The notes below the pieces were generated by a model. It saw nothing but the letters and a program-made list of their open reading frames with translations, had not been told where the DNA came from and made no database searches. A program made the translations under genes and the position numbers. A stretch of 64,000 bases of DNA from Pseudomonadota bacterium. Its GTDB lineage: Bacteria; Pseudomonadota; Alphaproteobacteria; Acetobacterales; Acetobacteraceae. Below, piece after piece: positions 18,384 to 33,117 of this stretch. The number at the start of each line of letters is the position of its first letter. Positions within the stretch are counted from its first letter, which is position 1. The stretch is from contig JAKBAD010000002.1 in the NCBI GenBank assembly GCA_021809435.1, forward strand, positions 1 through 64,000, written 5' to 3'.

Positions 18384-19322
18384 ATGTGTGGCATAGCCGG
18401 ACGAATATTAGGCAAAACAGGAGATGTCGGCACCGATCTGGTCGAGCTGATGGACGCCCAGGCCCATCGCGGCTCGGACAGCACGGGCTTCGCCATTTAT
18501 GCCCCGCCGCGCGCGCATGGCTATGTCGTTCGCGCCATGGGGTTTGACCGCGCGGGGCTGGGCCGGGACCTTGAGGATTTTTTGCTCATCCTGCGCGAGC
18601 ATGGCGGGGATTTTCTTGAGAACCCGACCTGGGACTCCGCCCCCGACAAGCATTATTCCGTGCGCATGGTGATCAGCGACCCGGCCAATGTCGCCCGCTG
18701 GATTCATGACGCCGACATGCTCTGCGCACGCCTCGAAGTGCAATCGGTCGGCCGCGCGCTGGAAATCATCAAAGATATCGGCGGTGCCGCCGAGGTTGCC
18801 GCCAAGCACCATGTGCGCGGCATGCAGGGCACGCACGGCCTTGGCCATGCCCGCCTGGCCACCGAGAGCGCCGTGCGCCCCAATGCCAGCCACCCGTTCT
18901 GGGCGCGCCCCTTCCCCGACGTCGCCATCGTGCATAACGGCCAGATCACCGATTACACCAACTGGCGCAACCGGCTGGAGCGCCAGGGTTACCGCTTCCT
19001 CACCCAGAATGATTCCGAGCTGATCGCCGTCTGGGTCTCGCATGAGATCAGCCAGGGCATGACCCTGCAACAGGCGCTCGACCACTCGATCAAACAGATC
19101 GATGGCGTGTTCACCTACATGATCGCCGACCTCAACGGCATCGGCTTCGCCAAGGACAGGTTCGCCATCAAGCCATTGGCCACCGTACAGGCGGACGGCG
19201 CCTTCTGCGCCGCCACCGAGGAACAGGCGCTGCGCCGGGTCTATCCGGGCGGCGCCAAGATCATCAATTATGACGGCCCGGCTAAAACCGGCATCTGGGG
19301 CAAGGGAGGGCTGGCCGCATGA
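18384..19322 (+). CDS. glxB: GlxB/MgsA-like class II glutamine amidotransferase
   Basis: 312 residues beginning MCGIAGR, where cysteine 2 is the Ntn nucleophile after methionine removal. Other amidotransferase landmarks are AHRGSDSTGF, GLGHARLATES and VAIVHNGQITDY. It is a stand-alone version of the glutaminase domain of glutamate synthase. It is known as GlxB next to glxA in rhizobia and as MgsA in the N-methylglutamate synthase of methylamine users. With GlxC and GlxD it should form a three-subunit enzyme that puts an amine or ammonia onto 2-oxoglutarate. An AAGGAG site precedes the ATG, and the stop overlaps glxC (ATGA). Confidence 0.9.
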   Translation: MCGIAGRILGKTGDVGTDLVELMDAQAHRGSDSTGFAIYAPPRAHGYVVRAMGFDRAGLGRDLEDFLLILREHGGDFLENPTWDSAPDKHYSVRMVISDPANVARWIHDADMLCARLEVQSVGRALEIIKDIGGAAEVAAKHHVRGMQGTHGLGHARLATESAVRPNASHPFWARPFPDVAIVHNGQITDYTNWRNRLERQGYRFLTQNDSELIAVWVSHEISQGMTLQQALDHSIKQIDGVFTYMIADLNGIGFAKDRFAIKPLATVQADGAFCAATEEQALRRVYPGGAKIINYDGPAKTGIWGKGGLAA

Positions 19323-20011
19323 GCGCCCATGTCATCGATGTCGGCAGCCGGTCCATCCGCGAGGTCAGCGCCGAGCTGCAGCAGGCCGCGCGCACGCGCG
19401 AAGCGGTGCATGTCATCAACACACTCTCGCGCCATAATCTCGGCATCGGCCTGCCGCCCGGCGCCGAGGTCAGCTTCGAAGGTTCGGTCGGCTATTATTG
19501 CGGCGGGCTCAACACCGGCGCGCGCATCACCATCGAAGGCGACGCGGGGTGGGGCGTGGGCGAGGGCATGGATGCCGGCCACATCACGGTCGGCGGCTAT
19601 GCGGGCATGTCGGCGGGCGCGGCCATGCGCGGCGGGCTCATCCACATCAAGGGCGATGCCGGGCCGCGCGCGGGCGTGGCCATGAAGGGCGGCACCATCG
19701 TGGTCGAGGGCAAGCTCGGCGCCCAGGCCGGGTTCATGGCGCATGCCGGCAAGATCATCGCGCTCGGCGGCGCCGCCACCTCCTGCGCCGATGCGCTCTG
19801 GCAGGGGGAAATCTGGGTCGCCGGCGACATTGAGAGCCTGGGCGTTGACGCCAAGGTGGTCGAGCCCACGCCCGCGCAGGTGGCCGAGGTGGAGGCGATT
19901 CTCGCCCCCCTGGGGCTTGCCGGCCAATCACGCAACTGGCGCCGCATCATCGCGGGCCAGCGCCTTTGGTATTTCGAGAGCAGGGATGCAAACGCATGGC
20001 TGATGATCTGA
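19319..20011 (+). CDS. glxC: GlxC/MgsB-like glutamate synthase alpha-subunit domain
   Basis: 230 residues. From about residue 60 it has the glycine-spaced beta-helix of the GltB C-terminal domain: GARITIEGDAGWGVGEGM, GGLIHIKGDAG, GGTIVVEGKLGAQAGF. This domain is structural in glutamate synthase, positioning the glutaminase and FMN modules. It corresponds to the middle subunit of N-methylglutamate synthase (MgsB) or GlxC. It is translationally coupled to both neighbours: the start overlaps glxB, and glxD begins 16 bases before its stop. Confidence 0.9.
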   Translation: MSAHVIDVGSRSIREVSAELQQAARTREAVHVINTLSRHNLGIGLPPGAEVSFEGSVGYYCGGLNTGARITIEGDAGWGVGEGMDAGHITVGGYAGMSAGAAMRGGLIHIKGDAGPRAGVAMKGGTIVVEGKLGAQAGFMAHAGKIIALGGAATSCADALWQGEIWVAGDIESLGVDAKVVEPTPAQVAEVEAILAPLGLAGQSRNWRRIIAGQRLWYFESRDANAWLMI

Positions 20012-21417
20012 ACATGGGCTACCAGTACCCGTTCCCCGAACCTTCCGAGGACATGGTGAAGTTTGGCGACGGTGCCATTCCCGGCCGACCGGCGGGCGTG
20101 CCCTCTTCCTACGATGCCGGCGGCTCACTGCGCTGGACGCCCGAAGCCATCTCCGAGGTTCACGCCCTGTCGCAGCTCGGCCGCTACCAGGTGCGGGGCT
20201 TTAACACCTTCAACAAGCGCTTCCCCACCTTCGACGACCTCACCTTCGTTCCCGCCACCATGACCCGCCTGCCCCTCGAAGGCTACCGCGAGTCCTGCGA
20301 CACCACCACCGTGCTGGGCGGCGGGCGCGGCATTGTCGAGAAGCCGATCGAGCTGAAAATCCCCATCTACATCGCCTCCATGTCATTTGGCGCCCTCTCG
20401 GCCAACGCCAAGGAGGCGCTGGGCCACGGCGCCTCGAAAGTCGGCACCATGACCTGCACCGGCGAGGGCGGCATGCTCGAGGAGGAGCGCGCGGCGTCTT
20501 CCAGGCTGGTGTATCAGATGTCACCCGCCCGCTATGGGCTCGATCTCGACCATCTGCGCCGCGCCGACGGGCTTGAAATTGTCGTTGGCCAGGGCGCCAA
20601 GCCGGGCACGGGCGGGCTGTTGCTGGGCATGAAGGTCTCGCCCCGCGTCTCGCAAATGCGCACCCTGCCCGAGGGCGTCGATCAGCGCTCCACCGTCCGC
20701 CACCCCGACTGGCTGGGCGCCGACGATCTGGCCATCAAGGTCGAGGAGCTGCGCATCGCCACCAATTACCAGGTGCCCATTTTCCTCAAAATGGGGGCCA
20801 CCCGCCCGCGCTACGACGTGGCGATCGCCGCCAAGGCGGGCGTCGACGTGGTGGTGGTCGATGGCGCCGAGGGCGGCACCGGCGCCTCGCCCGAGCTGCT
20901 GCTCAACCACACCGGCATCCCCACCATCAGCGCCATCCGCGCGGCGCGCGAGGCGCTGGATGAATGCGGCATGTCGGGCAAGGTTTCGCTGGTGGCGGCG
21001 GGCGGCATACGTTCGGGGGTCGATGTCGCCAAATGCCTGGCGCTTGGCGCCGATGCCGTGATGATCGGCAATGCCGCCATGATCGCGCTCGGCTGCAACT
21101 CACCGCGCTACCCCGATGATTATGCGAAGCTCGGCACCTCCCCCGGTGCCTGCCACCATTGCCACACGGGGCTGTGCCCGGTCGGCGTGGCCACGCAAAC
21201 GCCGGAGCTGACCGCGCGCATGGATGTGGCGGCGGGCGCCGAGCGTGTCGCCCGTTTTCTCACCGCCATGACCATGGAGGTGACCGCGCTCGCCAAGGCG
21301 TGCGGCAAATCCAATGTCCATAATCTCGATATGGAGGATCTGCGCGCCCTCTCCTTCGAAGCCTCCGCCTTCACGGGCGTAAAAATGGCCGGCATCGACC
21401 GCGCCTATGGGTGGTAA
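19996..21417 (+). CDS. glxD: GlxD/MgsC-like FMN glutamate synthase domain
   Basis: 473 residues from the ATG at 19996, chosen for the AGGGA site about ten bases upstream. It is the FMN/Fe-S synthase module: the barrel strand YIASMSFGALSANAKEALG, VDGAEGGTGASP and VAAGGIRSGVDVAKCLALGADAVMIG bind FMN and 2-oxoglutarate/imino intermediates. Cysteines 386, 389 and 394 (CHHCHTGLC) are placed to hold the iron-sulfur cluster. With GlxB and GlxC it should reduce an imine of 2-oxoglutarate to glutamate or an N-substituted glutamate. A structured repeat region separates it from the glutamine-synthetase-like gene. Confidence 0.9.
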   Translation: MADDLNMGYQYPFPEPSEDMVKFGDGAIPGRPAGVPSSYDAGGSLRWTPEAISEVHALSQLGRYQVRGFNTFNKRFPTFDDLTFVPATMTRLPLEGYRESCDTTTVLGGGRGIVEKPIELKIPIYIASMSFGALSANAKEALGHGASKVGTMTCTGEGGMLEEERAASSRLVYQMSPARYGLDLDHLRRADGLEIVVGQGAKPGTGGLLLGMKVSPRVSQMRTLPEGVDQRSTVRHPDWLGADDLAIKVEELRIATNYQVPIFLKMGATRPRYDVAIAAKAGVDVVVVDGAEGGTGASPELLLNHTGIPTISAIRAAREALDECGMSGKVSLVAAGGIRSGVDVAKCLALGADAVMIGNAAMIALGCNSPRYPDDYAKLGTSPGACHHCHTGLCPVGVATQTPELTARMDVAAGAERVARFLTAMTMEVTALAKACGKSNVHNLDMEDLRALSFEASAFTGVKMAGIDRAYGW

Positions 21418-21420
21418 AAA

Positions 21421-21497
21421 TTTTTGGGGGTGTGGACCCTTTTTATAAAAAGGGTCCACGAAACCGCCGCCTTTAAAAAAAAGGCAGCCCCCAAAAA
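21421..21497. repeat. Nested inverted repeats predicted to form a three-way junction
   Basis: Between glxD and the glutamine-synthetase homologue, TTTTTGGGGG (21421-21430) is the inverse complement of CCCCCAAAAA (21488-21497). Inside it lies a perfect 28-bp palindrome at 21432-21459 (13-base arms around AT, core GGACCC/GGGTCC). A shorter GCCTT/AAGGC hairpin follows at about 21469-21484. As RNA the three stems would fold into a cloverleaf-like junction. Possible roles are partial termination, mRNA processing within the operon, or a dispersed REP-like element. Confidence 0.8.
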
Positions 21498-21524
21498 ACT
21501 TTAAAATCTTTCGGGTGGCTCATC

Positions 21525-22829
21525 ATGATTGAAAAACCGATCTTCCCCCTGCCCGCGGGCACGCACACCATCGCCATGGGCATTGGCGACCTCAACGGCA
21601 TCATGCGCGGCAAACGCTTCCCGGCCAGCCATTGGCCCACGGTGTGCAAATCCGGCAACGCCGTCTCCATCGCCATGCTCGCCCTCGACATGACCTGCGA
21701 CGTCTGGGACACACCCTACGTCAATTTCACCAACGGCTTCCCCGACATGCATCTCTTTCCCCTGCACGCCCCCGTGGCCGTGCCGTGGGAGCCAGGCGTT
21801 GCCTTCTGCCTTGGTTACGCCGTCGGCATGGACCACAAGCCCGTTCCCATCGACCCGCGCGGCGCCCTGCTCCGCCAGCTCGAGCGCGCCAGCGCGCTGG
21901 GGTTTGAAATCAAGGTCGGCGCCGAGCTGGAATTCTACCTCGTCGATCCGGTGACAAAACTTCCCGTCGAGAAGGGCATCCAGGTCTATTCGCTCGCCCG
22001 GGCCGCGCAAAACGAATATGTGCTCGGCCCCATCAGGCAACTCATCAACCAGATGGACATCCCCATCGAGCAGTCCAACCCCGAATACGCCGCCGGCCAG
22101 GCCGAGGTGAACATACGCTACGCCGACGCGCTGAGCTCGGCCGACAATGTCATCAAATTCCGCAACCTGGTTAAAGAGCTTGCCCAAACCAAGGGCCTGC
22201 TCGCCACCTTCATGGCCAAGCCCTTCATCGACCAGTCCGGCAACGGCTTCCACGCCCATTATTCACTGTGGAAAGACGGCCAGAACGCCTTCGCCGACCA
22301 TGGGCGGCTGAGCCGCCTGGGCCTCGCCTTTCTGGCCGGGCTGCAACGGCGCATGGCCGAAATCACCCTGGCCGGCTCGACCACCCCCAACGCCATGCGC
22401 CGGCGCCTGCCCTATACATTCTGCCCCACCAACGCCAACTGGGGGTTCGATAACCGCACCGTTGGCCTGCGCGTGCTCGAAGGTTCCGAGTCCGCCGTTA
22501 GAATCGAAAAACGCGACGCCGCCGCCGACTGCAACCCCTACTATCTCATGGCCGCTGACATCGCCGCCGGGCTCGATGGCATCGAGCAGGCGCTCGAGCC
22601 TACCCCGCCCTGCATCGGCGATGGCTACGCGCCCGGCGCCGAGGGGGCCGGGCCGCTGCCCACCAGCCTTGCCCAGGCCGCCAGCCTCGCCGAAGACTCC
22701 GCCTTTCTGCGCGATGTGCTGGGCGATGAGCGCCTGGCCATCCTCATCCAGCAGGCCCGGCGCGAAATCGGCTTCATTGCCACACAGGTCACACCGGTCG
22801 AGATCGACCGCTATCTGGGGAATTTCTGA
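21525..22829 (+). CDS. Glutamine synthetase-family ligase (GmaS/PuuA-like)
   Basis: 434 residues with the type I glutamine synthetase fold. The N-terminal beta-grasp carries GDLNGIMRGK (21-30). The metal and glutamate site is seen in GAELEFYLV (E134, E136), GQAEVNIRY (E194) and GNGFHAHYS. Nucleotide and substrate positions are NWGFDNRTVGLRV and RIEKRDAAADCNPYYLMAADIAAGLDGIE. The RGK motif and overall pattern favour gamma-glutamyl-amine ligases such as gamma-glutamylmethylamide synthetase or gamma-glutamylputrescine synthetase over housekeeping GlnA. Placement beside glxBCD and a polyamine-type importer supports ligation of glutamate to an imported amine. The specific amine is unknown. Confidence 0.85.
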   Translation: MIEKPIFPLPAGTHTIAMGIGDLNGIMRGKRFPASHWPTVCKSGNAVSIAMLALDMTCDVWDTPYVNFTNGFPDMHLFPLHAPVAVPWEPGVAFCLGYAVGMDHKPVPIDPRGALLRQLERASALGFEIKVGAELEFYLVDPVTKLPVEKGIQVYSLARAAQNEYVLGPIRQLINQMDIPIEQSNPEYAAGQAEVNIRYADALSSADNVIKFRNLVKELAQTKGLLATFMAKPFIDQSGNGFHAHYSLWKDGQNAFADHGRLSRLGLAFLAGLQRRMAEITLAGSTTPNAMRRRLPYTFCPTNANWGFDNRTVGLRVLEGSESAVRIEKRDAAADCNPYYLMAADIAAGLDGIEQALEPTPPCIGDGYAPGAEGAGPLPTSLAQAASLAEDSAFLRDVLGDERLAILIQQARREIGFIATQVTPVEIDRYLGNF

Positions 22830-22831
22830 TC

Positions 22832-23245
22832 ATGTCCGTGCAAAAATATTTTTCCGGCGGGCGGTTTGAAGCCATCGGCTCCTATGCGCGCGGCAAGCGC
22901 GTCGGGCCTTATGTGTTCATCGCCGGCACCACCGCCATTAATGAGCAAAACGAGGTTCACGCGCCCGGAGATGCCTATGAGCAAACCATCTTCATCATGG
23001 CGCGCATTGAAAAAGCCCTGCACGCGCTTGGCGCCGATCTGACGCATGTCGTGCGCACCACCGCCTTTCTCTCCAACATGCAAGAGGGCGTGATGGGCTT
23101 TGTCAAAGCCCATGGCGAGGTGTTCAAGGGCATCGACCCGGTCTCCACCGGTGTCGAGGCCGGGCTCACCCGCCCGGGCATGATGGTTGAACTCCAGGTC
23201 GATGCCATCATCCACGACGAAACCGGCAATATCCTCGCGCCATGA
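22832..23245 (+). CDS. RidA/YjgF family enamine-imine deaminase
   Basis: 137 residues, the family length. Typical features are YVFIAGTTAINE, DLTHVVRTTAFL and RPGMMVELQVDAI, whose arginine anchors the carboxylate of imino acids. RidA proteins hydrolyse reactive imines or enamines released by flavin or PLP enzymes, forming ketone plus ammonia. It starts two bases after the synthetase stop and its own stop overlaps the oxidase ATG (ATGA), so it is probably made together with the FAD oxidase whose imine product it would clear. Confidence 0.88.
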   Translation: MSVQKYFSGGRFEAIGSYARGKRVGPYVFIAGTTAINEQNEVHAPGDAYEQTIFIMARIEKALHALGADLTHVVRTTAFLSNMQEGVMGFVKAHGEVFKGIDPVSTGVEAGLTRPGMMVELQVDAIIHDETGNILAP

Positions 23246-24525
23246 GCCTCTACCGCCCCCTTGAGGGTGACAGCACCCTGCCCCCGCAAGCCGATGTGGT
23301 GGTGATCGGCGGCGGCATCATCGGCGCCAGTACGGCGCTTGAACTCGCCGAGCGCGGCCACCGCGTGGCGCTGTGCGAAAAAGGTGACATCGGCGCCGAG
23401 CAATCCTGCCGTAACTGGGGCTGGGTGCGCCGCCAGGGCCGCGACCCGGCCGAACTTCCCCTTGCCATTGCCGCGCGCGCGCTGTGGGCGGGCCTTGCCG
23501 CGCGCGTTGGGTTTGATGCGGGCTACACCGAAAGCGGCATACTCTACGCCGCCGCCAATGCCCGCGAAATGGCCAACCACGAAGCCTGGTTCGCCAAAGC
23601 GCGCGGCTTCGGGCTGGACTCCAAGCTGCTCTCCGCCGCCGAGCTGGCCGCCCTGTTCCCCGGCACCGGGCGCCGCTTCACCGGCGGCCTGTTCACCGCA
23701 CAAGATGGCCGAGCCGAGCCGCGGGACGCCACCTACGCCATCGCCCAGGGGGCGCGGAAACAAGGCGCGGCCCTGCTCACCTCCTGCGCGGTGCGCGGCA
23801 TCGACACCACGGCCGGGCGGCTGAGCGGCGTGGTCACCGAGCGCGGGCTCATCAAATGCGGCGCGGCGCTGATCGCGGCCGGCGCCTGGAGCCGGCTGTT
23901 CACAGGCAATCTCGGCATCAATTTTAAGCAACTGCCCGTGCGCGGCACGGTCGCGCGCATTGAGCACAGCGGCCCCGCTCCCGAATTCGCCGTCGGCGGC
24001 ACTGATTTCGCCGTTCGCAAACGCCGGGACGGCGGCTACTCCATTGCCGTGCGCAACGCCAACATCGTTGAGCTGGGGCTCGATAACCTGCTCCTCGCCC
24101 CCGATTTTCTGCCCGCGCTGCGTACCGGCTGGCGCGAGCTGCGCTTGCGCCCCGGCCTGCCCTTCCTGCGCAGCCTGGTGCAGCAACGCCGATGGCGCGC
24201 CGGCGACATCACCCCCTTCGAGCGCACCCGCATCAATTCCACCGCGCCCTACCGCCACCTGCCCGAAACCGCCTTGAAAAACCTCATCGCCGCCGTGCCG
24301 GCCTTTGCCGGCGCCCGCCTTACCTCGGCGTGGTCGGGCATCATCGACACCACCCCCAACGCCCTGCCGGTCATCTCGCCCCTGCCCCTGCCCGGCCTGT
24401 TTCTGGCCAGCGGCTTTTCGGGGCATGGGTTTGGCATCGGCCTGGCCGCCGGGCGCCTGGCCGCCGACCTGGTCACCAATGCCACGCCCTTCCTCGACCC
24501 CACGCCCTTCCGCTTCACCAGCTGA
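23242..24525 (+). CDS. FAD-dependent amine/amino acid oxidoreductase (DAO family)
   Basis: 427 residues. The N-terminal dinucleotide fold reads VVVIGGGIIGASTALELAE (GGGIIG at 23-28), and the C-terminal FAD contact is LASGFSGHGFGIGLAAGRLA, both typical of the D-amino-acid/sarcosine/gamma-glutamylputrescine oxidase family. The SCRNWGWVRRQGRDPAELP segment (55-73) belongs to a DAO subgroup found near glx-type genes. It would oxidise a C-N bond of an N-substituted amino acid or amine. In N-methylglutamate pathways this step uses the multisubunit MgdABCD, which is missing here, so this single-chain enzyme is the probable substitute. Confidence 0.85.
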   Translation: MSLYRPLEGDSTLPPQADVVVIGGGIIGASTALELAERGHRVALCEKGDIGAEQSCRNWGWVRRQGRDPAELPLAIAARALWAGLAARVGFDAGYTESGILYAAANAREMANHEAWFAKARGFGLDSKLLSAAELAALFPGTGRRFTGGLFTAQDGRAEPRDATYAIAQGARKQGAALLTSCAVRGIDTTAGRLSGVVTERGLIKCGAALIAAGAWSRLFTGNLGINFKQLPVRGTVARIEHSGPAPEFAVGGTDFAVRKRRDGGYSIAVRNANIVELGLDNLLLAPDFLPALRTGWRELRLRPGLPFLRSLVQQRRWRAGDITPFERTRINSTAPYRHLPETALKNLIAAVPAFAGARLTSAWSGIIDTTPNALPVISPLPLPGLFLASGFSGHGFGIGLAAGRLAADLVTNATPFLDPTPFRFTS

Positions 24526-24556
24526 ACCGGGCACGAAATTTGCACAATCTGCCGTG

Positions 24557-25600
24557 ATGCCTGACACCGACCATCTTCCGGCCGCGGCCGTGATCATGAC
24601 CGACATCGCGCGCGAGACCCTGCTCGCCATCACGCGCGAGCGTCCGCGCCTGGCCTATATCGGCCCGCTCACCGGCGGCGCGGCGGCGCTGCACCCGCGG
24701 GCGGGCGAGGCTTTTCCCCTTTCCACCTTCACCGCGCTGCTTGAAACCGCCGCCGCCGAGCTGGGCGATGAGACCTTCGGCCTCAGCCTGGGCGCGCGCT
24801 TTGGCCTGGGCGCGCTTGGCCGGCTTGGCCGGCTGATGCAGTGCGCCCCCAGCGTGGGCGAGGCGCTCACCGCCTTCGTGCGCTATTTCAGCCTGGTGCA
24901 AACCAACAGCCTGTGCCGGCTGGCGGTTGATAACGGCACTGCCCGCCTGTCCTACGCCATCACCGATTCCAGCGTCCGCTGCCGCACCCAGGACGCCAAT
25001 TTCACCGCCGCCATGCTCGACAAGGTGCTCCACGCCCTGCTCGGCGCCAGCTGGCGCAAACAAGCCATCGAGTTCGCCCACCACCCCGCCGCGCCACCCG
25101 GCGCCTATCAATCACAGTTTGGCTGCCCCGTGCGCTTCGGCGCCGCCCAAACCGCGCTGGTCTTTCCCGCCGCCTGCCTCGCCCAGGCGCCGAGGGGGGG
25201 AAACGAGCCTCATTACCAAACGCTCCATGACGCGCTCGAGGCCGAGCACAGCGCCGCCCGGCACCGGCTCGATCTGCAAAACGCCCTCGAAGCCTGGATT
25301 GCCGCCGGCCTGACCGCCGGCGCCAGCACCGAGGCCGAACACGCCGCCAGCGATTTCGGGATGAGCCTGCGCAGCCTGCAACGGCGCCTGGGCGCGGCGC
25401 AGGTCAATTTCGCCGCGTTGCGTAACGAGGTGCGCGGGCGCCTCGCGCGGGCGCTGCTCCAAGACACTGACCTGCCCGTCACCGCCATCGGCGAGCGGCT
25501 GGGATATTCCGAAACCAGCGCCTTCTCGCGGGCCTTTACCCGCCGCCACGGCGTTTCACCCGCCGCTTACCGCCAGCGCCCGCCCGCCACCCGGCCTTAA
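24557..25600 (+). CDS. AraC-family transcriptional regulator
   Basis: 347 residues from the ATG at 24557. Residues about 20-205 form the arabinose-binding-like sensor domain seen in OruR/ArgR-type AraC proteins (LGDETFGLSLGARF, LGRLMQCAPSVGEAL). Residues about 250-340 carry the double helix-turn-helix: SLRSLQRRLGAAQVNF and ALLQDTDLPVTAIGERLGYSETSAFSRAFTRRHGVSPAAYR. It lies 31 bases after the oxidase gene and ends two bases from the convergent importer operon. It is the likely inducer-responsive activator of the glx cluster and perhaps the importer. Confidence 0.88.
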   Translation: MPDTDHLPAAAVIMTDIARETLLAITRERPRLAYIGPLTGGAAALHPRAGEAFPLSTFTALLETAAAELGDETFGLSLGARFGLGALGRLGRLMQCAPSVGEALTAFVRYFSLVQTNSLCRLAVDNGTARLSYAITDSSVRCRTQDANFTAAMLDKVLHALLGASWRKQAIEFAHHPAAPPGAYQSQFGCPVRFGAAQTALVFPAACLAQAPRGGNEPHYQTLHDALEAEHSAARHRLDLQNALEAWIAAGLTAGASTEAEHAASDFGMSLRSLQRRLGAAQVNFAALRNEVRGRLARALLQDTDLPVTAIGERLGYSETSAFSRAFTRRHGVSPAAYRQRPPATRP

Positions 25601-25602
25601 CC

Positions 25603-26388
25603 TCACCGCGCCGCGCGCCCCGCGTCGCCAATCAGCTTCTGCGACAGCATCACCGGCACCACGGTGAACAATATCACCGCGAACACCACCACATTCACCT
25701 CGGGCAATTGCTGGCCCAGCCGGATGGCGCCAAAAATCCACAGGGGCAATGTGTTCTGCGCGCCGGCCGTGAACGTGGTGACGATCACCTCATCGAACGA
25801 CAGCGCAAAGGCCAGCAGCGCGCCCGCCCCAATGCTTGAAGCCATCATCGGCAACTGTACCCGCCGGAAGGTGTGAAAGGCATCCGCCCCCAAATCGGCG
25901 GAGGCTTCCACCAGCGAGCGCGGCAACCGCCGCAGCCGCGCAATGACGTTGTTATAAACAATCACCACGCAAAACGTCGCGTGCCCGGCGACAATCGTCC
26001 AGTAAGAGAGATTGACGTTGAGATAGGCAAAATATGCGGCCAGCGCCATGCCGGTTAAAATTCCCGGCAGCGCGATCGGCAACAGCACCACAAAGCTCAC
26101 CACCTCCTTGGTGGCAGACTGCATGCGCGCCACCGCCATGGCCGCCAGCGTGCCCAGCACCATGGCCATCGCTGTCGCCATCACCGCCACTTCCAGCGAC
26201 AGCAGCAGCGCGGCGCGCACCTGGTCGTCGTTCCAGGTGTCTCGAAACCAGTGCAGCGCGAACCCGGCAATCGGCCAGGCGGGAATGGGCGCGGCGGAAA
26301 ACGCGTAGAGAATGACGATCACCACCGGCGCGAACAAAAACACCAGCACCGCGCCAACCGCCAGCCAAATGAGGGATTCAGAGCGCAT
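25603..26388 (-). CDS. ABC importer permease, PotC/YdcV-like
   Basis: 261 residues from the ATG at 26388, overlapping the preceding permease by 11 bases. Six hydrophobic helices are visible. The BPD permease EAA loop appears as SLVEASADLGADAFHTFRRVQLPM. The family match is to the second permease of spermidine/putrescine-type importers (PotC, YdcV). It pairs with the 26378-27256 permease to make the inner-membrane channel, and is the last gene of the four-gene importer operon. Confidence 0.87.
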   Translation of the reverse strand: MRSESLIWLAVGAVLVFLFAPVVIVILYAFSAAPIPAWPIAGFALHWFRDTWNDDQVRAALLLSLEVAVMATAMAMVLGTLAAMAVARMQSATKEVVSFVVLLPIALPGILTGMALAAYFAYLNVNLSYWTIVAGHATFCVVIVYNNVIARLRRLPRSLVEASADLGADAFHTFRRVQLPMMASSIGAGALLAFALSFDEVIVTTFTAGAQNTLPLWIFGAIRLGQQLPEVNVVVFAVILFTVVPVMLSQKLIGDAGRAAR

Positions 26389-27256
26389 CGAACGCCCCCA
26401 GCCGGCGGGCAATGAGCAAAAACCCCGCCATCACGCCCAGCGGCAGCACCGCATAGGCCGCCGCGAAGGGAATGTTATTGGTTACGCCGACATTCGAATA
26501 CACCACATTGCCGATGAAATCAGAGCCCTCGCCCCCCACCAGCATTGGCGTCACATAATCGCCCAGCGTCAGCGAAAAGGTAAAAATCGCCCCCGCCACC
26601 ATGCCCGGCAGCGCCAGCGGCAGCACCACGCGCCGGAATGTGCGCAGCCCCGTCTCTCCCAGATCGCTCGAAGCCTCCAGCAGGCTGGGCGCAATGCGCT
26701 CCACACTGGCCGCGATCGGCAAAATCATGAACGGCAGCCATAAATACGAAAACACGATCCACATCGCCCAGTTTGAATAGCCGATATGAAGCCGCGGCAA
26801 GCCGATTTCGATGAGTGCCCAGTTGAGCACGCCGTTATGCGCCAAAATCAGCCGCCATGCATAAACCCGGGCCAGATAGCTCGACCATAACGGCACCATC
26901 ACCGCCGCCATCAGCACCGCGCGCAGCCGTGGTCCGGCCAGCCGTACCATCGCATAGGCCACCGGCCAGGCGAGCAAGATATCCGTCACCGTCACCGAAG
27001 CCGCGATACCCACCGTGCGCAGCGCGATTTTGGTATAGATCGGGTCGGACAGCAGAGCCTGGAAATTGCCCAGCGAGAACCCTGGGATCAGGGTGCCCGA
27101 GAGCGGGTCGACGCTCCAAAACGAGGTCACGAACATGGCGCCGATGGCCGCCAGATACAGCCCCGCGAACCAAGCGCCCGGCAACGCCAGCAGCGCCCCC
27201 GTGGCCGCCCAGCCCCGCCGCCAGACAAAGGATGACCAAGCTTTCAGCGGGTGCAT
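26378..27256 (-). CDS. ABC importer permease, PotB/YdcU-like
   Basis: 292 residues from the ATG at 27256, preceded by GGCGGAG. Six transmembrane helices, starting near residue 16 (ALLALPGAWFAGLYLAAIGAMFV), and an EAA loop reading SLLEASSDLGETGLRTFRRVVLPLALPG identify the first permease of a polyamine-type importer. It is separated from the binding-protein gene by a 58-base gap carrying a strong GC hairpin (27278-27300). This should lower permease expression relative to binding protein. Confidence 0.87.
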   Translation of the reverse strand: MHPLKAWSSFVWRRGWAATGALLALPGAWFAGLYLAAIGAMFVTSFWSVDPLSGTLIPGFSLGNFQALLSDPIYTKIALRTVGIAASVTVTDILLAWPVAYAMVRLAGPRLRAVLMAAVMVPLWSSYLARVYAWRLILAHNGVLNWALIEIGLPRLHIGYSNWAMWIVFSYLWLPFMILPIAASVERIAPSLLEASSDLGETGLRTFRRVVLPLALPGMVAGAIFTFSLTLGDYVTPMLVGGEGSDFIGNVVYSNVGVTNNIPFAAAYAVLPLGVMAGFLLIARRLGAFDAL

Positions 27257-27277
27257 GAAACGGCTCCGCCATGGGAG

Positions 27278-27300
27278 GCAAGGGGGCAGAGCCCCCTTGC
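27278..27300. repeat. GC hairpin between binding-protein and permease genes
   Basis: GCAAGGGGGC at 27278-27287 and GCCCCCTTGC at 27291-27300 form perfect 10-bp arms with a 3-base loop. It lies within the importer transcript just after the binding-protein stop at 27315 and before the permease ATG at 27256. There is no T-run, so it is more likely an mRNA 3'-end stabiliser or partial attenuator than a full terminator. Confidence 0.75.
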
Positions 27301-27314
27301 GGCACCATACCCCA

Positions 27315-28463
27315 TCATCCCTTGATGTTCTGCCATTCGCGCTGCCAGGCGGAATAATCCAGGCAATCATCTTTGCCATTGCCGCAATCGGCCAGCGGGG
27401 TTTTCCAGAACTTGATGGAGTCGAAATAGCTGGCCGGCGCATTGGCATGATACTGCGCGCAGGCACCTGGCTGTTCGGCGTCCATTTCCTTGCAGGCGAG
27501 CGTGTTGGCCGGCGTCTCGCCAAAATAAATCGCCTGTTCGGCCTGCACTTTGGGCGTGGTTACCCAGTTGATCCACTCATAGGCACAGTTGGGGTGCTTG
27601 GCCTTGGCCGAGATCATCCACGTATCGGCCCAGCCCGTCGCGCCCTCGGCGGGAATGGTATCGGCCACGGCCACCTTGGCGGCCTGCAGCGTGTTGGTCT
27701 GATATGGCCAGGCCGCGCCCACCACCGCATCGCCCGAGGTGAAGAGCTGGATCTCATCGGACGCCAGGGCCCAATATTTCTTGATCAGCCCGGACTGGGT
27801 CTTCAACAGCGCCACCACCGCGTTCATCTGCGTCTGGTTCAGCTCATAAGGGTCGGTAATCCCCAGCGAGGGATCGGCCTTCGAGAGGTAGAGCGCGGCA
27901 TCGGCAATCTGGATCGGATTATCGGGTACCGTGATCTGGCCCTTGTATTTTGGATTATAAATCACGCTCCACGAGGTGGGCGCGGTGGGGAACACCTTGG
28001 TCGAATATAGCAGCGTATTGGGCCCCCATTCATAGGACACCCCGTAATGCACGCCCTTCACGGTGTTGAAATCCGGGCTCTGGAGTTGTGGGATGAAATT
28101 CTTCCAGGCCGGAATCAGGGCGATGTTGATCGGTTGCACGTTATGGCCGTAAATCAGCCGCAGCGTGGCATCGCCCGAGGCCGACACCACGTCATATTGT
28201 CCGCCGCCCCCTGAGCGCATCAGCGCCACCATCTCATCCGAGGATCCGGCATATTTGGCGTTCACCATGCAGCCCGTGGCGGCCTCGAAGGGCTTCACCC
28301 AGTCATCCTGCGCATAGCCCTCCCAGGCCACCACATTCAGCACGCCCTCGCCCTTGCCGATCGCCTGCAAGGGCTGCACCGCGGCGGCCGTCTGCACCAT
28401 GGGCAACGACATGGAAACCCCCAGCAGAAGCCGGGCAACGTCTCGTTTCAGATCGGCTTTCAT
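27315..28463 (-). CDS. Periplasmic polyamine-type binding protein (YdcS/PotD-like)
   Basis: 382 residues. Residues 1-28 form a signal peptide (basic start, hydrophobic core, AAA cleavage region). The mature protein has the PotD/PotF-like fold: GVLNVVAWEGYAQDDWVKPFE, YDVVSASGDATLRLI, YGVSYEWGPNTLLY, ALYLSKADPSLGITDPY and GWADTWMIS. The closest characterised group is YdcS, which binds putrescine and related amines. The start and the upstream ATPase stop share one base (TGATG), with a GGGAGAAG ribosome site. It would capture the amine that feeds the neighbouring glx cluster. Confidence 0.87.
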   Translation of the reverse strand: MKADLKRDVARLLLGVSMSLPMVQTAAAVQPLQAIGKGEGVLNVVAWEGYAQDDWVKPFEAATGCMVNAKYAGSSDEMVALMRSGGGGQYDVVSASGDATLRLIYGHNVQPINIALIPAWKNFIPQLQSPDFNTVKGVHYGVSYEWGPNTLLYSTKVFPTAPTSWSVIYNPKYKGQITVPDNPIQIADAALYLSKADPSLGITDPYELNQTQMNAVVALLKTQSGLIKKYWALASDEIQLFTSGDAVVGAAWPYQTNTLQAAKVAVADTIPAEGATGWADTWMISAKAKHPNCAYEWINWVTTPKVQAEQAIYFGETPANTLACKEMDAEQPGACAQYHANAPASYFDSIKFWKTPLADCGNGKDDCLDYSAWQREWQNIKG

Positions 28464-29506
28464 CAGACTTCTCCCTCGTTGTTATTGGAAATCCTCACGC
28501 ACGCCTCAACCGGCCACAGGGCCAAAACCTCATCACCGGGCACAAGCCGCAGGCGCTCCGCCCTGGGGGCGGTGTTCGCCTCCATCACGCTCAAGGCCCG
28601 CCCGTCAGCCAGCATCACGCCAAAGCGCGTCACCGCGCCCAGATACACCGCCTCGCGCACCACGCCGGGCCGGGCTTCAAACCCGGCGGGCACGGGCGCC
28701 GCGGGCGCCAGCAGCCGCACCTTCTCGGGCCGCAGCAGCATAGAATCCCAAAGGTTCGAACTGCCAACAAAATCCGCCACGAACGCGCTGGCCGGGCGCT
28801 CATAAAGCTCAAACGGCGTGCCCACCTGCTCAATCTCGCCGTGCGAAAACACCGCGATCCGGTCCGACATGGACAGCGCCTCGTCCTGGTCATGGGTCAC
28901 GTAAATGAAGGTGATGCCGGTATCATGCTGCAATTTCTTCAGCTCAGCCTGCATCTGGTGGCGCAGCTTCAAATCCAGCGCGCCCAGCGGCTCATCGAGC
29001 AGCAGCACGCGGGGCTTGTTCACCATCGCGCGCGCCAAAGCCACCCGCTGGCGCTGCCCGCCCGAGAGCTGCGCCGGCTTGCGCCCGGCAAACGCATCCA
29101 GCTTCACCGCCGCCAGCGCCTTTTCCGCTTCGTCATGGGCCTGGGCCTTGGGCATTTTCCGGGCACGCAGCCCATAGGCCACGTTTTCCACCAGTGTCAG
29201 GTGCGGAAACAGCGCATAATCCTGAAACACCGTGTTCACGTGGCGCAAATGCGGCGCCAAATCGGCCACATCCGCCCCGTCGAGCAAAATCCGCCCGGTA
29301 TCGGGCCGCTCGAAGCCGGCAATCAGGCGCAGCGTGGTGGTTTTTCCCGAGCCGCTTGGTCCCAGCAGCGTGAAAAACTCTCCCGCCCGCACCAGCAGGT
29401 CGAGCCGTTTCAGCGCCACGGCGGCGCCGTAGCTCTTCACCACCCCCTGCAACTCAACAATTGGCGCCGGCGCCAAGCCCGCCGCCCCTGCACGATCCAT
29501 ACCCAT
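28463..29506 (-). CDS. ABC importer ATPase, PotA/YdcT-like
   Basis: 347 residues. The nucleotide-binding domain carries Walker A GPSGSGKTT, signature LSGGQRQRVALARA, Walker B VLLLDEPLGALD and the switch histidine in YVTHDQDEA. A C-terminal TOBE-type beta domain follows (LLRPEKVRLLAP, YLGAVTRFGV). It energises the two permeases of this operon. It is the first gene of the minus-strand operon and diverges from the branched-chain oxoacid dehydrogenase genes across about 210 bases. The ATG at 29500 is an alternative start. Confidence 0.9.
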   Translation of the reverse strand: MGMDRAGAAGLAPAPIVELQGVVKSYGAAVALKRLDLLVRAGEFFTLLGPSGSGKTTTLRLIAGFERPDTGRILLDGADVADLAPHLRHVNTVFQDYALFPHLTLVENVAYGLRARKMPKAQAHDEAEKALAAVKLDAFAGRKPAQLSGGQRQRVALARAMVNKPRVLLLDEPLGALDLKLRHQMQAELKKLQHDTGITFIYVTHDQDEALSMSDRIAVFSHGEIEQVGTPFELYERPASAFVADFVGSSNLWDSMLLRPEKVRLLAPAAPVPAGFEARPGVVREAVYLGAVTRFGVMLADGRALSVMEANTAPRAERLRLVPGDEVLALWPVEACVRISNNNEGEV

Positions 29507-29716: not shown

Positions 29717-30952
29717 ATGCGCAACCTGCCGCCGCTTCACCTGCACATTCCAGCCCCCCACGCCCGCCCGGGCGAGGCGCCGGATTTCAGCTACCTCACC
29801 TTTCCGGCACCCGGCGCCACACGCCGCCCCGCGCCGCTGACCCCGGAGGCCGAGATGCGCGACCTGCCCTACGGGCTGATTCGCGTGCTCGCCGAGGACG
29901 GCCAAGCCGTGGGGCCGTGGCACCCGCATCTGCCCCCGGCTTTGCTCCAAAAGGGCCTGCGCGCCATGATGCTCACGCGCGCCTTCGACGACCGCATGTT
30001 CGCCGCCCATCACCAGGGCAAAACCTCGTTTTACATGAAATCAACCGGCGAGGAGGCGACCGCCGCCGCGCCCTCGCTCGCCCTGCAACCGGGCGACATG
30101 TGCTTCCCCACCTACCGCATGGTCAGCTTCCTCATCGCGCGCGACTATCCGCTGGCCAATCTGGTCAACCAGACCTTCGCCAATGCCGGCGACCCGATGC
30201 GCGGCCGGCAGCTGCCCCTGCTGTATTCGGCGCGCGACTACGGGTTCTATTCGCTGGCGGGCAATGTCGGCAGCCGGTTCGGCCACGCGGTCGGCTGGGC
30301 CATGGCCTCGGCCTTTAAGGGCGATGACAAAATCGCCATGGCGTTTGTCGGCGATGGCACGACCGCCGAAGGTAATTTCCACGAGGCCATGGTGTTCGCC
30401 GCCGTCTACCACGCCCCCGTGATCCTGTGCGTGACCAACAACCAATGGGCGATTTCGAGCTACCAGGGCATGGCGGGCGGCGAGGAAACCACCTTCGCGG
30501 CGCGCGGCATCGGCTACGGGTTGCCCGGCCTGCGCGTGGATGGCAACGACTTTCTGGCCGTTTACGCCGCCACCCAATGGGCTGCAGAGCGGGCGCGCGC
30601 CAATTATGGTGCCACGCTGATTGAATTCGTCACCTACCGGGTCGCCGGCCATTCGAGCAACGACGACCCATCGCGCTACCGCCCATCGGGCGAAGCCCGC
30701 GCCTGGCCGCTGGGGGATCCGATCGAGCGGCTGAAAACCCACCTGATCAGCCTGGGCGAATGGTCGGAGGCGCGCCACGAGGAGCTGGCCAAGACGCTGC
30801 ACGAGGAGGTGCGCGCCGCCGCCAAGGCCGGCGAGGCGCTGGGCACACTCGGCCAAAACCCGCCGCCCCGGCGTGAGATGTTCGAGCATGTGTTCAAGAC
30901 GCCCGATTGGCGCAACCTTGAGCAGCGGCGCGAATGCGGGGTTGATCAATGA
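29717..30952 (+). CDS. bkdA1: Branched-chain 2-oxoacid dehydrogenase E1 alpha subunit
   Basis: 411 residues. It carries the thiamine-diphosphate motif GDGTTAEGN at 212-220 continuing to VTNNQWAIS, the substrate helix FYMKSTGEEA, and the phosphorylation-loop-like HSSNDDPSRYR. The long N-terminal extension (about 60 residues before YGLIRVLAEDG) is characteristic of bacterial BCKDH E1 alpha rather than pyruvate dehydrogenase. It decarboxylates oxoacids from leucine, isoleucine and valine and passes the acyl group to E2. The stop overlaps the E1 beta ATG (ATGA). Confidence 0.9.
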   Translation: MRNLPPLHLHIPAPHARPGEAPDFSYLTFPAPGATRRPAPLTPEAEMRDLPYGLIRVLAEDGQAVGPWHPHLPPALLQKGLRAMMLTRAFDDRMFAAHHQGKTSFYMKSTGEEATAAAPSLALQPGDMCFPTYRMVSFLIARDYPLANLVNQTFANAGDPMRGRQLPLLYSARDYGFYSLAGNVGSRFGHAVGWAMASAFKGDDKIAMAFVGDGTTAEGNFHEAMVFAAVYHAPVILCVTNNQWAISSYQGMAGGEETTFAARGIGYGLPGLRVDGNDFLAVYAATQWAAERARANYGATLIEFVTYRVAGHSSNDDPSRYRPSGEARAWPLGDPIERLKTHLISLGEWSEARHEELAKTLHEEVRAAAKAGEALGTLGQNPPPRREMFEHVFKTPDWRNLEQRRECGVDQ

Positions 30953-31962
30953 CCCAGATGAGCATGATCCAGGCCATCCACTCGGCGCTCGATGCCATGC
31001 TCGCACGTGACCCCAACGTGCTGATCTTTGGCGAGGATGTCGGCTATTTCGGCGGCGTGTTCCGCGCCACCGACGGGTTGCAGGCCAAATATGGCCCCAC
31101 GCGCTGCTTCGACACGCCGCTCTCCGAAGGCGGCATCGTCGCCACCGCCATCGGCATGGGCGCCTACGGCCTGCGCCCGGTCGTCGAAATCCAGTTCGCC
31201 GACTATATCCTCCCCGCCTATGACCAGCTGGTCTCCGAAGCCGCCCGCCTGCGCTACCGCTCGGGCGGCGAATTCTGGGCGCCCATTACCGTGCGCGCGC
31301 CCTATGGCGGGGGCATTTATGGCGGCCAAACCCACAGCGCCAGCCCCGAGGCTTTGTTCACCCATGTCGCCGGGCTCAAAACCATCATCCCCGCCACCCC
31401 CTATGATGCCAAGGGCCTGCTCATCGCCGCCATCGAGGATGACGACCCGGTGATTTTTCTGGAGCCCAAGCGCATTTATAACGGCCCCTTCGATGGCCGC
31501 CACGATGTGCCCGCCAAACCCTGGACCGATGAGCCCGGCAGCGACGTGCCCGAGGGCTATTACCGCGTGTCGCTGGGCAGCGCCGCCATCTGCCGCGCGG
31601 GCGAGGCCGTCACGGTGCTGGCCTACGGCACCATGGTTCATGTGGCGCTGCGCGCGGTTGAGGAAACCGGGATCGACGCCGAGGTGATCGATCTGCGCAG
31701 CCTGGTGCCGCTCGATATCGAAACCATCACCGTCTCGGTCAACAAAACCGGCCGCTGCGTGATCGTGCACGAGGCCACGCGCTATTGCGGCTTTGGCGCC
31801 GAGCTGTCGGCCCTGGTGCAGGAGCGCTGCTTCTACCGGCTCGAAGCCCCGATCGTGCGCGTCACCGGCTGGGACACGCCCTACCCGCACGCTTTTGAGT
31901 GGGATTATTTCCCCGGCCCCCAGCGCGTGGCCAAGGGGCTGCGCCAAGCGCTGGAGGCCTGA
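30949..31962 (+). CDS. bkdA2: Branched-chain 2-oxoacid dehydrogenase E1 beta subunit
   Basis: 337 residues. Typical E1 beta sequence: [36 protein letters not shown] and [28 protein letters not shown] in the pyrimidine-binding half. The C-terminal transketolase domain follows, with [16 protein letters not shown] and [15 protein letters not shown]. It forms the alpha2beta2 E1 component with the preceding gene and is followed immediately by E2 (stop and ATG adjacent). Confidence 0.9.
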
Positions 31963-33117
31963 ATGGCACGGTTCATCTTCCGCCTGCCCGATATCGGCGA
32001 AGGCGTGACCCAGGCCGAACTCACCGCCTGGCACGTCGGCGTGGGTGAGCGGCTGGCGGAAGACCAGCTGATGGCCGAGGTGATGACCGACAAGGCCAAT
32101 GTGGAAATGACCGCCCCAGCCGCCGGCATCGTGCGGGCGCTGCACGGCCGGCCGGGCGAGAAAATCGCCGTCGGCGCCCCGCTCATCGAGCTGGAAACCG
32201 ACGCGCCCATGGCCCAACCGGCAAGCCCAGCCACGCCGCCGGCCGGGTCGGCGCCAGCCACGCCGCCCGCTACTGCCAGCGCTGGCGTGCGCGCCGCCCC
32301 CGCCACCCGCCGCCTCGCGCGCGAGCAGGGCATTGATCTCCGCCACGTGCCCGGCACCGGGCCCGAGGGGCGCATCACCGCCGCCGACCTGGCCGCCTTT
32401 CAGTCCCACGGCGAGGCGGACGTGCGTGAGATTCCCATCCTCGGTCTGCGCCGCCAGATCGCCGATCATCTGCAGGCCGCCACCCGCGACATTCCACATT
32501 TCACCTATGTCGAGGAGATCGACATGACCGCGCTCGAAGCCCTGCGCGCAACCCTCAACGCCGAACGCGCCACAGACCAGCCCCACCTGACCCTGCTGCC
32601 CTTTTTCATGCGCGCCCTGGCCCTCACCCTGCCCCGCCACCCACAGCTCAACGCCCGCTATGACGGCGCCGCCGGCCTGCTCCGGGTCTATCGTCCGGTG
32701 CATATCGGCATTGCCACGCAAAGCCCCGGCGGGCTGCTGGTGCCGGTGGTGCGCCATGCCGAACGGCTGGATTTATGGGGCGCCGCCCGCGAGCTCGCGC
32801 GCCTGGCATCCGCCGCGCGCGACGGCCACGCCCGCCGCGAGGAGCTGACCGGCTCGACCATCACGCTCACCAGCCTGGGCGCGCTGGGCGGCCTCGCCGC
32901 CACGCCCATTCTCAACGCCCCCGAGGTCGCCATCCTCGCCCCCAACAAGCTCACCCCGCGCCCGGTGGTGCAGGGCGGGCAAATCGTGATCCGCACCATG
33001 ATGAACCTCTCCGCCGCCTTCGACCACCGCATCATCGACGGGTTCGAGGCCGCCACCTTCATCCAGGCCCTGCGCGGCGCCCTCGAAACCCCCGCCGCAC
33101 TGGCAGCGCCGCCCTGA
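31963..33117 (+). CDS. bkdB: Branched-chain 2-oxoacid dehydrogenase E2 (lipoamide acyltransferase)
   Basis: 384 residues with three parts. First is an N-terminal lipoyl domain, with the lipoylated lysine 44 in MTDKANVEM. An Ala/Pro-rich linker leads to an E3-binding domain at about 105-145 ([25 protein letters not shown]). The catalytic CAT domain ends in FDHRIIDG, with histidine 355 and aspartate 359 as the active-site pair. It transfers branched acyl groups from E1 to CoA. No lpd (E3) gene follows in this window, so the complex must borrow one encoded elsewhere. Confidence 0.9.

Follow-up and report, generated by a model that had tools for sequence, protein, structure and literature searches.

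The window analysed here is a stretch of 64,000 nucleotides of DNA from a bacterium of the Acetobacteraceae. Between positions 18384 and 29506 it contains eleven genes in two convergent sets, running from GlxB to an AraC-family regulator on the forward strand (18384–25600) and from PotC to PotA on the reverse strand (25603–29506). With a probability of about 0.55 the cluster serves the inducible breakdown, as one module, of a small primary amine that is not methylamine; we infer its reactions, its regulation and its class of substrate. The first-pass annotation had seen in this cluster a single-chain flavin adenine dinucleotide (FAD) oxidase instead of the four-subunit MgdABCD of the N-methylglutamate (NMG) pathway. 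Profile scans of the window find all the genes that it named, each where it had been placed.

The ligase of the cluster is a glutamine synthetase (GS)-like protein, encoded at 21525–22829 on the forward strand (PF00120, 277.7 bits) and predicted to be a gamma-glutamyl-amine ligase. This protein and the clade to which it belongs are termed GSw. A scan of one genome per species, covering 84,980 species, gave 139 pattern matches and 108 relatives, from which the best 80 loci (58–80% identical to GSw) were kept; they are a selection of relatives rather than a census. Together with L052 (genome G025) and L034 (a Mesorhizobium loti plasmid) this makes the 82 loci examined. In a GS tree of 85 rows, comprising these loci, the window and two outgroups, the GSw clade is separate from both GmaS and IpuC. 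With support of 100/100 the window protein clusters with those of Acidocella aromatica, an Acidocella metagenome-assembled genome (MAG) and two MAGs of Rhodospirillales.

The histidines, arginines and glutamates that were checked in the ATP, metal and glutamate sites of GS are kept in 83/83 rows, the roles of the active-site residues of GS and GmaS being taken from excerpts of PMC7948447. The Glu-flap glutamate is different. In the GS 8s59 it lies within the motif YEAP and aligns to Phe299 of the window protein, and phenylalanine occupies this place in all 83 rows. The residue alignment contains no row with a Glu-flap glutamate, and the comparison rests on pairwise alignment to 8s59 and on the same excerpts. 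Three comparison rows of that alignment (own_L001, own_L002 and own_L004) seem to be antisense frames and are excluded from all counts. Because the glutamate is replaced throughout, ordinary GlnA activity alone is unlikely for these proteins, and the earlier description of a GS-like ligase is borne out. The places of GmaS Trp300 and Asp177 were assigned from motifs and spacing instead of residue numbers. The latter, an aspartate proposed to deprotonate methylamine (PMC7948447, in excerpt), corresponds to Asn185 in 83/83 GSw rows, and IpuC likewise has an asparagine there. We infer that GSw acts on another substrate than GmaS does, or binds it in another way.

The window is part of contig 6 of a 2.65-Mb genome (G000), and contig 8 carries a further GlxBCD set, accompanied by a GS of its own (gmaS-mgsABC). 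The GS of contig 8 scores 663.7 against the type III model TIGR03105 (cut-off 469.6) and 651 bits against RhGmaS (PDB 7cql; PMC7948447, in excerpt). In the same two tests GSw scores 217.9 and 130 bits, and so does not rank as a GmaS orthologue. A SoxBDAG-like operon with purU and folD is found on contig 4. Since its best matches in two congeners (G006 and G023, SoxB 74 and 76%) adjoin mgsABC-gmaS, it is read as mgdABCD-like, although the models used cannot separate MgdABCD from sarcosine oxidase by score. With gmaS-mgsABC and this operon present elsewhere in the genome, the window cluster is a second, parallel system rather than an incomplete methylamine route. The remark that no mgd genes are visible therefore holds among the genes of 18384–29506 and fails for the genome, and the proposal that the oxidase takes the place of MgdABCD in a variant methylamine route falls with it. 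A degenerate NMG pathway was also rejected, because an NMG-type set sits elsewhere in the genome. The GS catalytic domain has ten matches in G000, on contigs 4, 6, 7, 8, 9 and 10, of which two adjacent matches on contig 10 may be the halves of one gene.

The likeness of the window to the NMG pathway (GmaS, MgsABC and MgdABCD) lies in the GS-like ligase and in the three-subunit synthase of GlxBCD type, GlxBCD having been named as a putative NMG synthase in SAR11 (PMC3160333, in excerpt). The differences are in the clade of the ligase and in the use of a single-chain oxidase in place of four subunits. The cluster might nevertheless be a second system for methylamine or ethylamine, alternative to the NMG pathway, in which the single-chain oxidase would replace MgdABCD on the same substrate. 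DAO-superfamily oxidases handle N-methyl amino acids, and the Glx subunits are of the MgsABC type. RhGmaS itself accepts ethylamine (PMC7948447, in excerpt). This explanation is unlikely, given that GmaS-MgsABC and an MgdABCD-like operon are already present in the genome, that all GSw rows have asparagine at the Asp177 place, and that the cluster, unlike the NMG genes, includes no folate genes.

The three Glx subunits lie at the start of the forward set, in the order of an MgsABC-type synthase as predicted by sequence. GlxB/MgsA-like (18384–19322, 312 amino acids) is a class II glutamine amidotransferase (GATase) subunit (GATase_6, 63.5 bits; GATase_7, 61.9 bits). Its N-terminus MCGIAG includes the nucleophilic cysteine, and Cys2 is kept in 38/39 rows, the remaining row having a gap. 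It is followed by the GlxC/MgsB-like GXGXG subunit (19319–20011; PF01493, 53.9 bits) and by the GlxD/MgsC-like FMN/Fe-S subunit of glutamate-synthase type (19996–21417, where the first ATG at 19996 was chosen as start; PF01645, 321.3 bits), in which Cys396, Cys399 and Cys404 are kept in 42/42 aligned rows. After GSw come a Rid-family protein (22832–23245; PF01042, 70.7 bits), a single-chain FAD oxidase of the DAO superfamily that is L-amino-acid-deaminase-like (23242–24525; PF01266, 237.2 bits) and the QhpR-like AraC-family regulator (from 24557 or 24596 to 25600). The genes overlap by 4 bp (GlxB/GlxC), 16 bp (GlxC/GlxD) and 4 bp (Rid/oxidase), with gaps of 2 bp between GSw and Rid and of 107 bp between GlxD and GSw. 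Given this spacing, the forward genes are likely to be read as a single transcript. The order GlxBCD-GS-Rid-DAO-AraC is found again in A. aromatica at 66–95% identity, which argues that the cluster is more than a chance grouping.

The association of ligase, Glx subunits and oxidase extends well beyond Acidocella. The content of the 82 loci was scored at fixed identity thresholds, and because several contigs are short the counts are lower bounds. Shell protein BMC-H is found in 57 loci, an opine-dehydrogenase-like protein in 56, a EutE-like aldehyde dehydrogenase in 54, Rid in 53, BMC-T in 52 and a lactate/malate dehydrogenase (LDH/MDH)-like protein in 49. GlxD is found in 41, GlxB and GlxC each in 38, a Liv-type binding protein in 36, a class I GATase in 27, the window-type oxidase in 4 and the window-type AraC in 2. 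All three Glx subunits are present in 37/82. Each of the 42 loci with GlxB or GlxD has a single-chain oxidase of the DAO superfamily, which is MTOX/monomeric-sarcosine-oxidase-like in 33 (a type assigned from one member), pipecolate-oxidase-like in 5 and L-amino-acid-deaminase-like in 4. Neither GlxB nor GlxD is found in any of the 14 loci without these three oxidase types (0/14), and the same is true of Rid (0/14). The pairing of oxidase and Glx gives p = 1e-5 by Fisher's exact test, uncorrected for relatedness. The MTOX-type oxidase occurs in 59/82 loci, in 55 of which it is divergent from GSw and <900 bp away. In five shell-free loci the DAO-superfamily enzyme is of the pipecolate-oxidase-like type, named after the best NCBIfam match of a single scanned member, L-pipecolate oxidase (152.6 bits, below the cut-off of 600). 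With 42/42 Glx-bearing loci carrying such an enzyme, the combination of ligase, GlxBCD and single-chain oxidase looks like a recurring module, and the linkage suggested from the window alone is supported across these loci.

Microcompartment shell genes are carried by 57/82 GSw loci, from Rhodobacteraceae, Granulosicoccaceae and others (L077:4549-21277 and 56 further loci, L060–L135). These loci have GSw, Glx, Rid and a single-chain FAD oxidase in common with the window, with identities to it of 58–70% for GSw, 57–88% for GlxB/C/D and 52–67% for Rid. They differ in that the oxidase is MTOX-like and that shell proteins, a EutE-like aldehyde dehydrogenase, an opine-dehydrogenase homologue, an LDH-type dehydrogenase and often a Liv-type ATP-binding cassette (ABC) importer are added. 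The MTOX-type oxidase is present in 57/57, the opine-dehydrogenase homologue in 56/57, the EutE-like enzyme in 54, Rid in 47 and GlxB or GlxD in 33, and BMC-T is also found. A vertex-type shell protein (EutN_CcmL, 90.9 bits) occurs in L077, the sole locus checked. The opine-dehydrogenase homologue of L077, 397 amino acids long, has a match to N-(1-D-carboxylethyl)-L-norvaline dehydrogenase (1bg6, E = 3e-13). Pfam gives none for it at E = 1e-5; the L066 homologue reaches 29.3 bits for Octopine_DH, just below the cut-off of 30. The EutE-like enzyme scores 500.2 bits against the model for acetylating acetaldehyde dehydrogenase (cut-off 620.1). No signature enzyme of the described microcompartments was seen among the conserved genes of these loci. 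The LDH-like gene of L077 has an in-frame N-terminal extension (L077:15107-15373), possibly a linker or a region for encapsulation, or else only the result of a start set too far upstream.

The genome of the window has no match to the shell family PF00936 at E = 0.001, PF03319 not having been searched, and a microcompartment elsewhere in this genome was rejected since PF00936 is unmatched. In the GS tree the rows of window type, P450 type and soluble-aldehyde-dehydrogenase type are nested among the shell rows. A single clade of shell rows is weakly rejected by the approximately unbiased test (p-AU = 0.033, 57 rows versus 11), the group having been chosen after the tree was seen. Because unshelled rows nest in this way, the tree fits an origin of the unshelled Acidocella form from a shelled one; the outgroup branches are very long and leave the root unsure.

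The reactions proposed for the module begin with the ATP-dependent joining of the amine to glutamate by the GS-like ligase, which would give a gamma-glutamyl amide. GlxB would then cleave the amide and pass the amine to the FMN/Fe-S subunit GlxD, which would condense it with 2-oxoglutarate and reduce the product to an N-alkyl-glutamate, a secondary amine, in the manner of N-methylglutamate synthase. The single-chain FAD oxidase would oxidise the N-alkyl-glutamate to an aldehyde and glutamate; single-chain FAD oxidases that convert N-methyl-2-aminoethylphosphonate directly to the aldehyde are published (PMC10590968, in excerpt). The Rid-family protein may assist at an imine or another side product lacking an alpha-carboxylate, and in the shelled loci the aldehyde would go on to the EutE-like acylating dehydrogenase. 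As that enzyme resembles acetylating acetaldehyde dehydrogenase, one might guess at a C2–C3 aldehyde, formed from an amine such as ethylamine.

Transcription of the cluster genes would be switched on by the AraC protein, which at 270.1 bits scores above the cut-off of 250 for the QhpR equivalog model NF049968; its neighbours here are not qhp genes. In Methyloversatilis, qhp expression increases on methylamine (PMC5023235, in excerpt), and the QhpR-like regulator thus hints at a primary amine as substrate.

The adjoining importer of Pot/YdcS type and the presence of GS and a DAO-superfamily oxidase in one operon recall the Puu pathway for putrescine. A pathway of this kind would have the GS glutamylate an imported di- or polyamine and the FAD oxidase act on its free amine end as PuuB does, with GlxBCD serving only to recover glutamate. 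GSw does match the gamma-glutamylputrescine synthetase model (NF045547, PuuA type), but with 174.7 bits it falls far below the cut-off of 650. No match to a family of PuuC or PuuD type is found among the operon genes, GlxBCD is additional to the Puu set, and conservation of the cluster does not extend to the importer. The pairing of Glx and oxidase in 42/42 loci would also be left unexplained, and we consider a Puu-type pathway improbable. Opine dehydrogenases and sarcosine-oxidase-like enzymes are families that act on N-substituted amino acids. It is mainly because the shelled loci carry an opine-dehydrogenase homologue together with sarcosine-oxidase-like enzymes that the route through N-alkyl-glutamate is preferred.

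A second point of comparison is the isopropylamine pathway of Paenarthrobacter aurescens TC1, whose plasmid-borne IpuC proteins are the best specifically named plasmid matches of GSw (35.2 and 36.5% identity). A M. loti plasmid protein is 64.8% identical to GSw and is annotated as GS family only. The IpuC pathway is P450-based, and GlxBCD and a DAO oxidase are absent among the 11 plasmid features read. Three GSw loci (L034:8068-15470, L092 and L124) have a layout similar to that of the IpuC plasmids, with GSw, a P450, an iron–sulfur protein and an APC permease; a gene similar to gamma-glutamyl-gamma-aminobutyrate hydrolase is present in 2/3, and GlxBCD and the three oxidase types are lacking. 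In two alphaproteobacterial MAGs GSw is followed directly by a gene of the class I fructose-bisphosphate-aldolase family (L127:11287-12324, 525 bits; L133:11281-12369, 524 bits). GlxBCD and Rid were not found at these two loci; the tree places L127 together with SAR116 rows.

Several observations weigh against an amine module that proceeds by way of N-alkyl-glutamate. The closest solved relative of the window oxidase is the L-amino acid deaminase 5fjm, to which it is homologous over nearly its full length (222.7 bits, residues 10–424), in a different gene context. An attack of the kind made by L-amino acid deaminase would fall on the glutamate side and not on the alkyl side, and would be futile in the proposed scheme. 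The nearest plasmid relatives of the oxidase adjoin hydantoinase/oxoprolinase genes in three annotated plasmid neighbourhoods, and did not point to a cluster like that of the window. A structure model of the oxidase from a five-row alignment had a mean predicted local distance difference test score of 39.0 and was not used. The operon has no aldehyde dehydrogenase; one at 12853–14277, 4 kb away on the opposite strand, was profile-scanned and is excluded from the proposed pathway. The Rid protein has Leu112 at the ungapped aligned place of the arginine required for imine hydrolysis (Arg105 of Escherichia coli TdcF, by alignment to solved Rid chains), and leucine is found there in 54/54 rows. 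In the recurrence analysis, at least 9 kb is available on both sides in only 7/14 of the loci lacking the three oxidase types, and one of the 14 (L130) has an 808-amino-acid DAO-superfamily frame ~4 kb from GSw, 27% identical to the window oxidase. Lastly, neither GlxB nor GlxD is seen in 24/57 shell loci, and in 13 of these the sequence extends for at least 9.5 kb to either side; such loci may do without GlxBCD or encode it elsewhere.

Imine hydrolysis by Rid depends on the conserved arginine, and the Rid4–7 groups lack it, their function being left open (PMC4433059, in excerpt). The role in imine clearing given to RidA by the first-pass annotation is consequently doubtful. An arginine lies two residues beyond the leucine in the window (Arg114), L056 and L057, and one may speculate that the usual arginine might be dispensable for an imine that has no alpha-carboxylate. 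The homology of the oxidase raises a further alternative, in which it would be an L-amino acid deaminase whose substrate is an amino acid that the cluster forms or sets free, with GlxBCD and GS serving in ammonia assimilation. The near full-length match to 5fjm is what such a role would lead one to expect. The MTOX-like and pipecolate-oxidase-like families are known for secondary amines, and it is with these that the GS/Glx pair is associated elsewhere; moreover, the GS lacks the Glu-flap glutamate in every row. A function on the amino-acid side is accordingly unlikely.

The reverse set encodes an ABC importer. Two permeases, of PotC type (25603–26412; PRK09500, 161 bits, below the cut-off of 326) and PotB/PotH type (about 26378–27256, the start taken from the translation inspected by eye; PRK10683, 152.1 bits, below the cut-off of 489), are followed by a substrate-binding protein (27315–28463) and a PotA-like ATPase (28463–29506; PRK09452, 381.5 bits, below the cut-off of 482, with ABC_tran and TOBE_2 domains). 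The binding protein is related to YdcS and is not its equivalog (NF041888, 367.7 bits, cut-off 725; 6nlp, 318.7 bits). Genes for the E1 alpha, E1 beta and E2 components of a branched-chain 2-oxoacid dehydrogenase lie at 29717–33117, divergent from PotA.

In A. aromatica the cluster occupies a different site, next to glycolate oxidase genes and an importer whose binding protein is PotD/F-like and not YdcS-like. A congener of the window (G011) shares both A. aromatica flanks at 86–97% in the longer frames, and judging from this synteny the genus of the window is probably Acidocella. Of the cluster itself G011 retains only pieces that match GlxB and Rid (L055:8391-9200), followed by stretches in which remains of the oxidase and AraC are suggested on visual inspection. 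Despite this erosion, the reading frames of its importer are uninterrupted up to the contig end. The importer is thus not strictly tied to the cluster, being a different paralogue in A. aromatica and still open in frame in G011 beside a remnant. PotABCD as an obligate partner is weakened by these two observations. The neighbourhood described by the first-pass annotation is conserved as the order GlxBCD-GS-Rid-DAO-AraC in A. aromatica and as a core in alpha- and gammaproteobacteria; its importer is not, and the idea of a dedicated transporter becomes doubtful.

A close GlxB is present in 2/299 sampled genomes of the order, namely that of the window and its congener G188 (84%); with the window genome left out, this is 1/298. 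So patchy a distribution, together with the difference in location and importer between the window and A. aromatica, would be consistent with loose neighbours assembled by chance through horizontal transfer and forming no single pathway. The recurrence of the same order in two locations at 66–95% identity, and of the core across alpha- and gammaproteobacteria, makes this very unlikely.

On the reading as an amine module, the window would hold the unshelled version, of Acidocella/Rhodospirillales type, of a system that stands beside microcompartment genes in many other alpha- and gammaproteobacteria. More tentatively, and at somewhat less than even odds, the whole may be an undescribed third branch of the catabolism of amines by conjugation to glutamate, with a dedicated ligase clade, GlxBCD and an interchangeable single-chain oxidase (MTOX-like, pipecolate-oxidase-like or L-amino-acid-deaminase-like). 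It would exist in shelled and unshelled forms, and the shelled form would be ancestral to the unshelled one of Acidocella, which would have lost the shell and replaced the oxidase. As part of the same proposal, the shelled form would be a metabolosome with an aldehyde derived from N-alkyl-glutamate, a chemistry not named in the portions seen of two microcompartment surveys. Among the matches listed, titles and the openings of abstracts give no description of this module, and no literature joining 'microcompartment' with 'opine dehydrogenase' was found. The catalogue of microcompartments published in 2021 (PMC8217296) has no word beginning 'glutam' in its main text; its supplement of 68 types, outside this check, may list the shelled loci without a function.

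If this is correct, the methylamine type of amine route has a wide relative for other amines, one that uses a single small flavoenzyme. The substrate of a group of microcompartments would then be testable by way of the shell-free version in the cultured A. aromatica DSM 27026.

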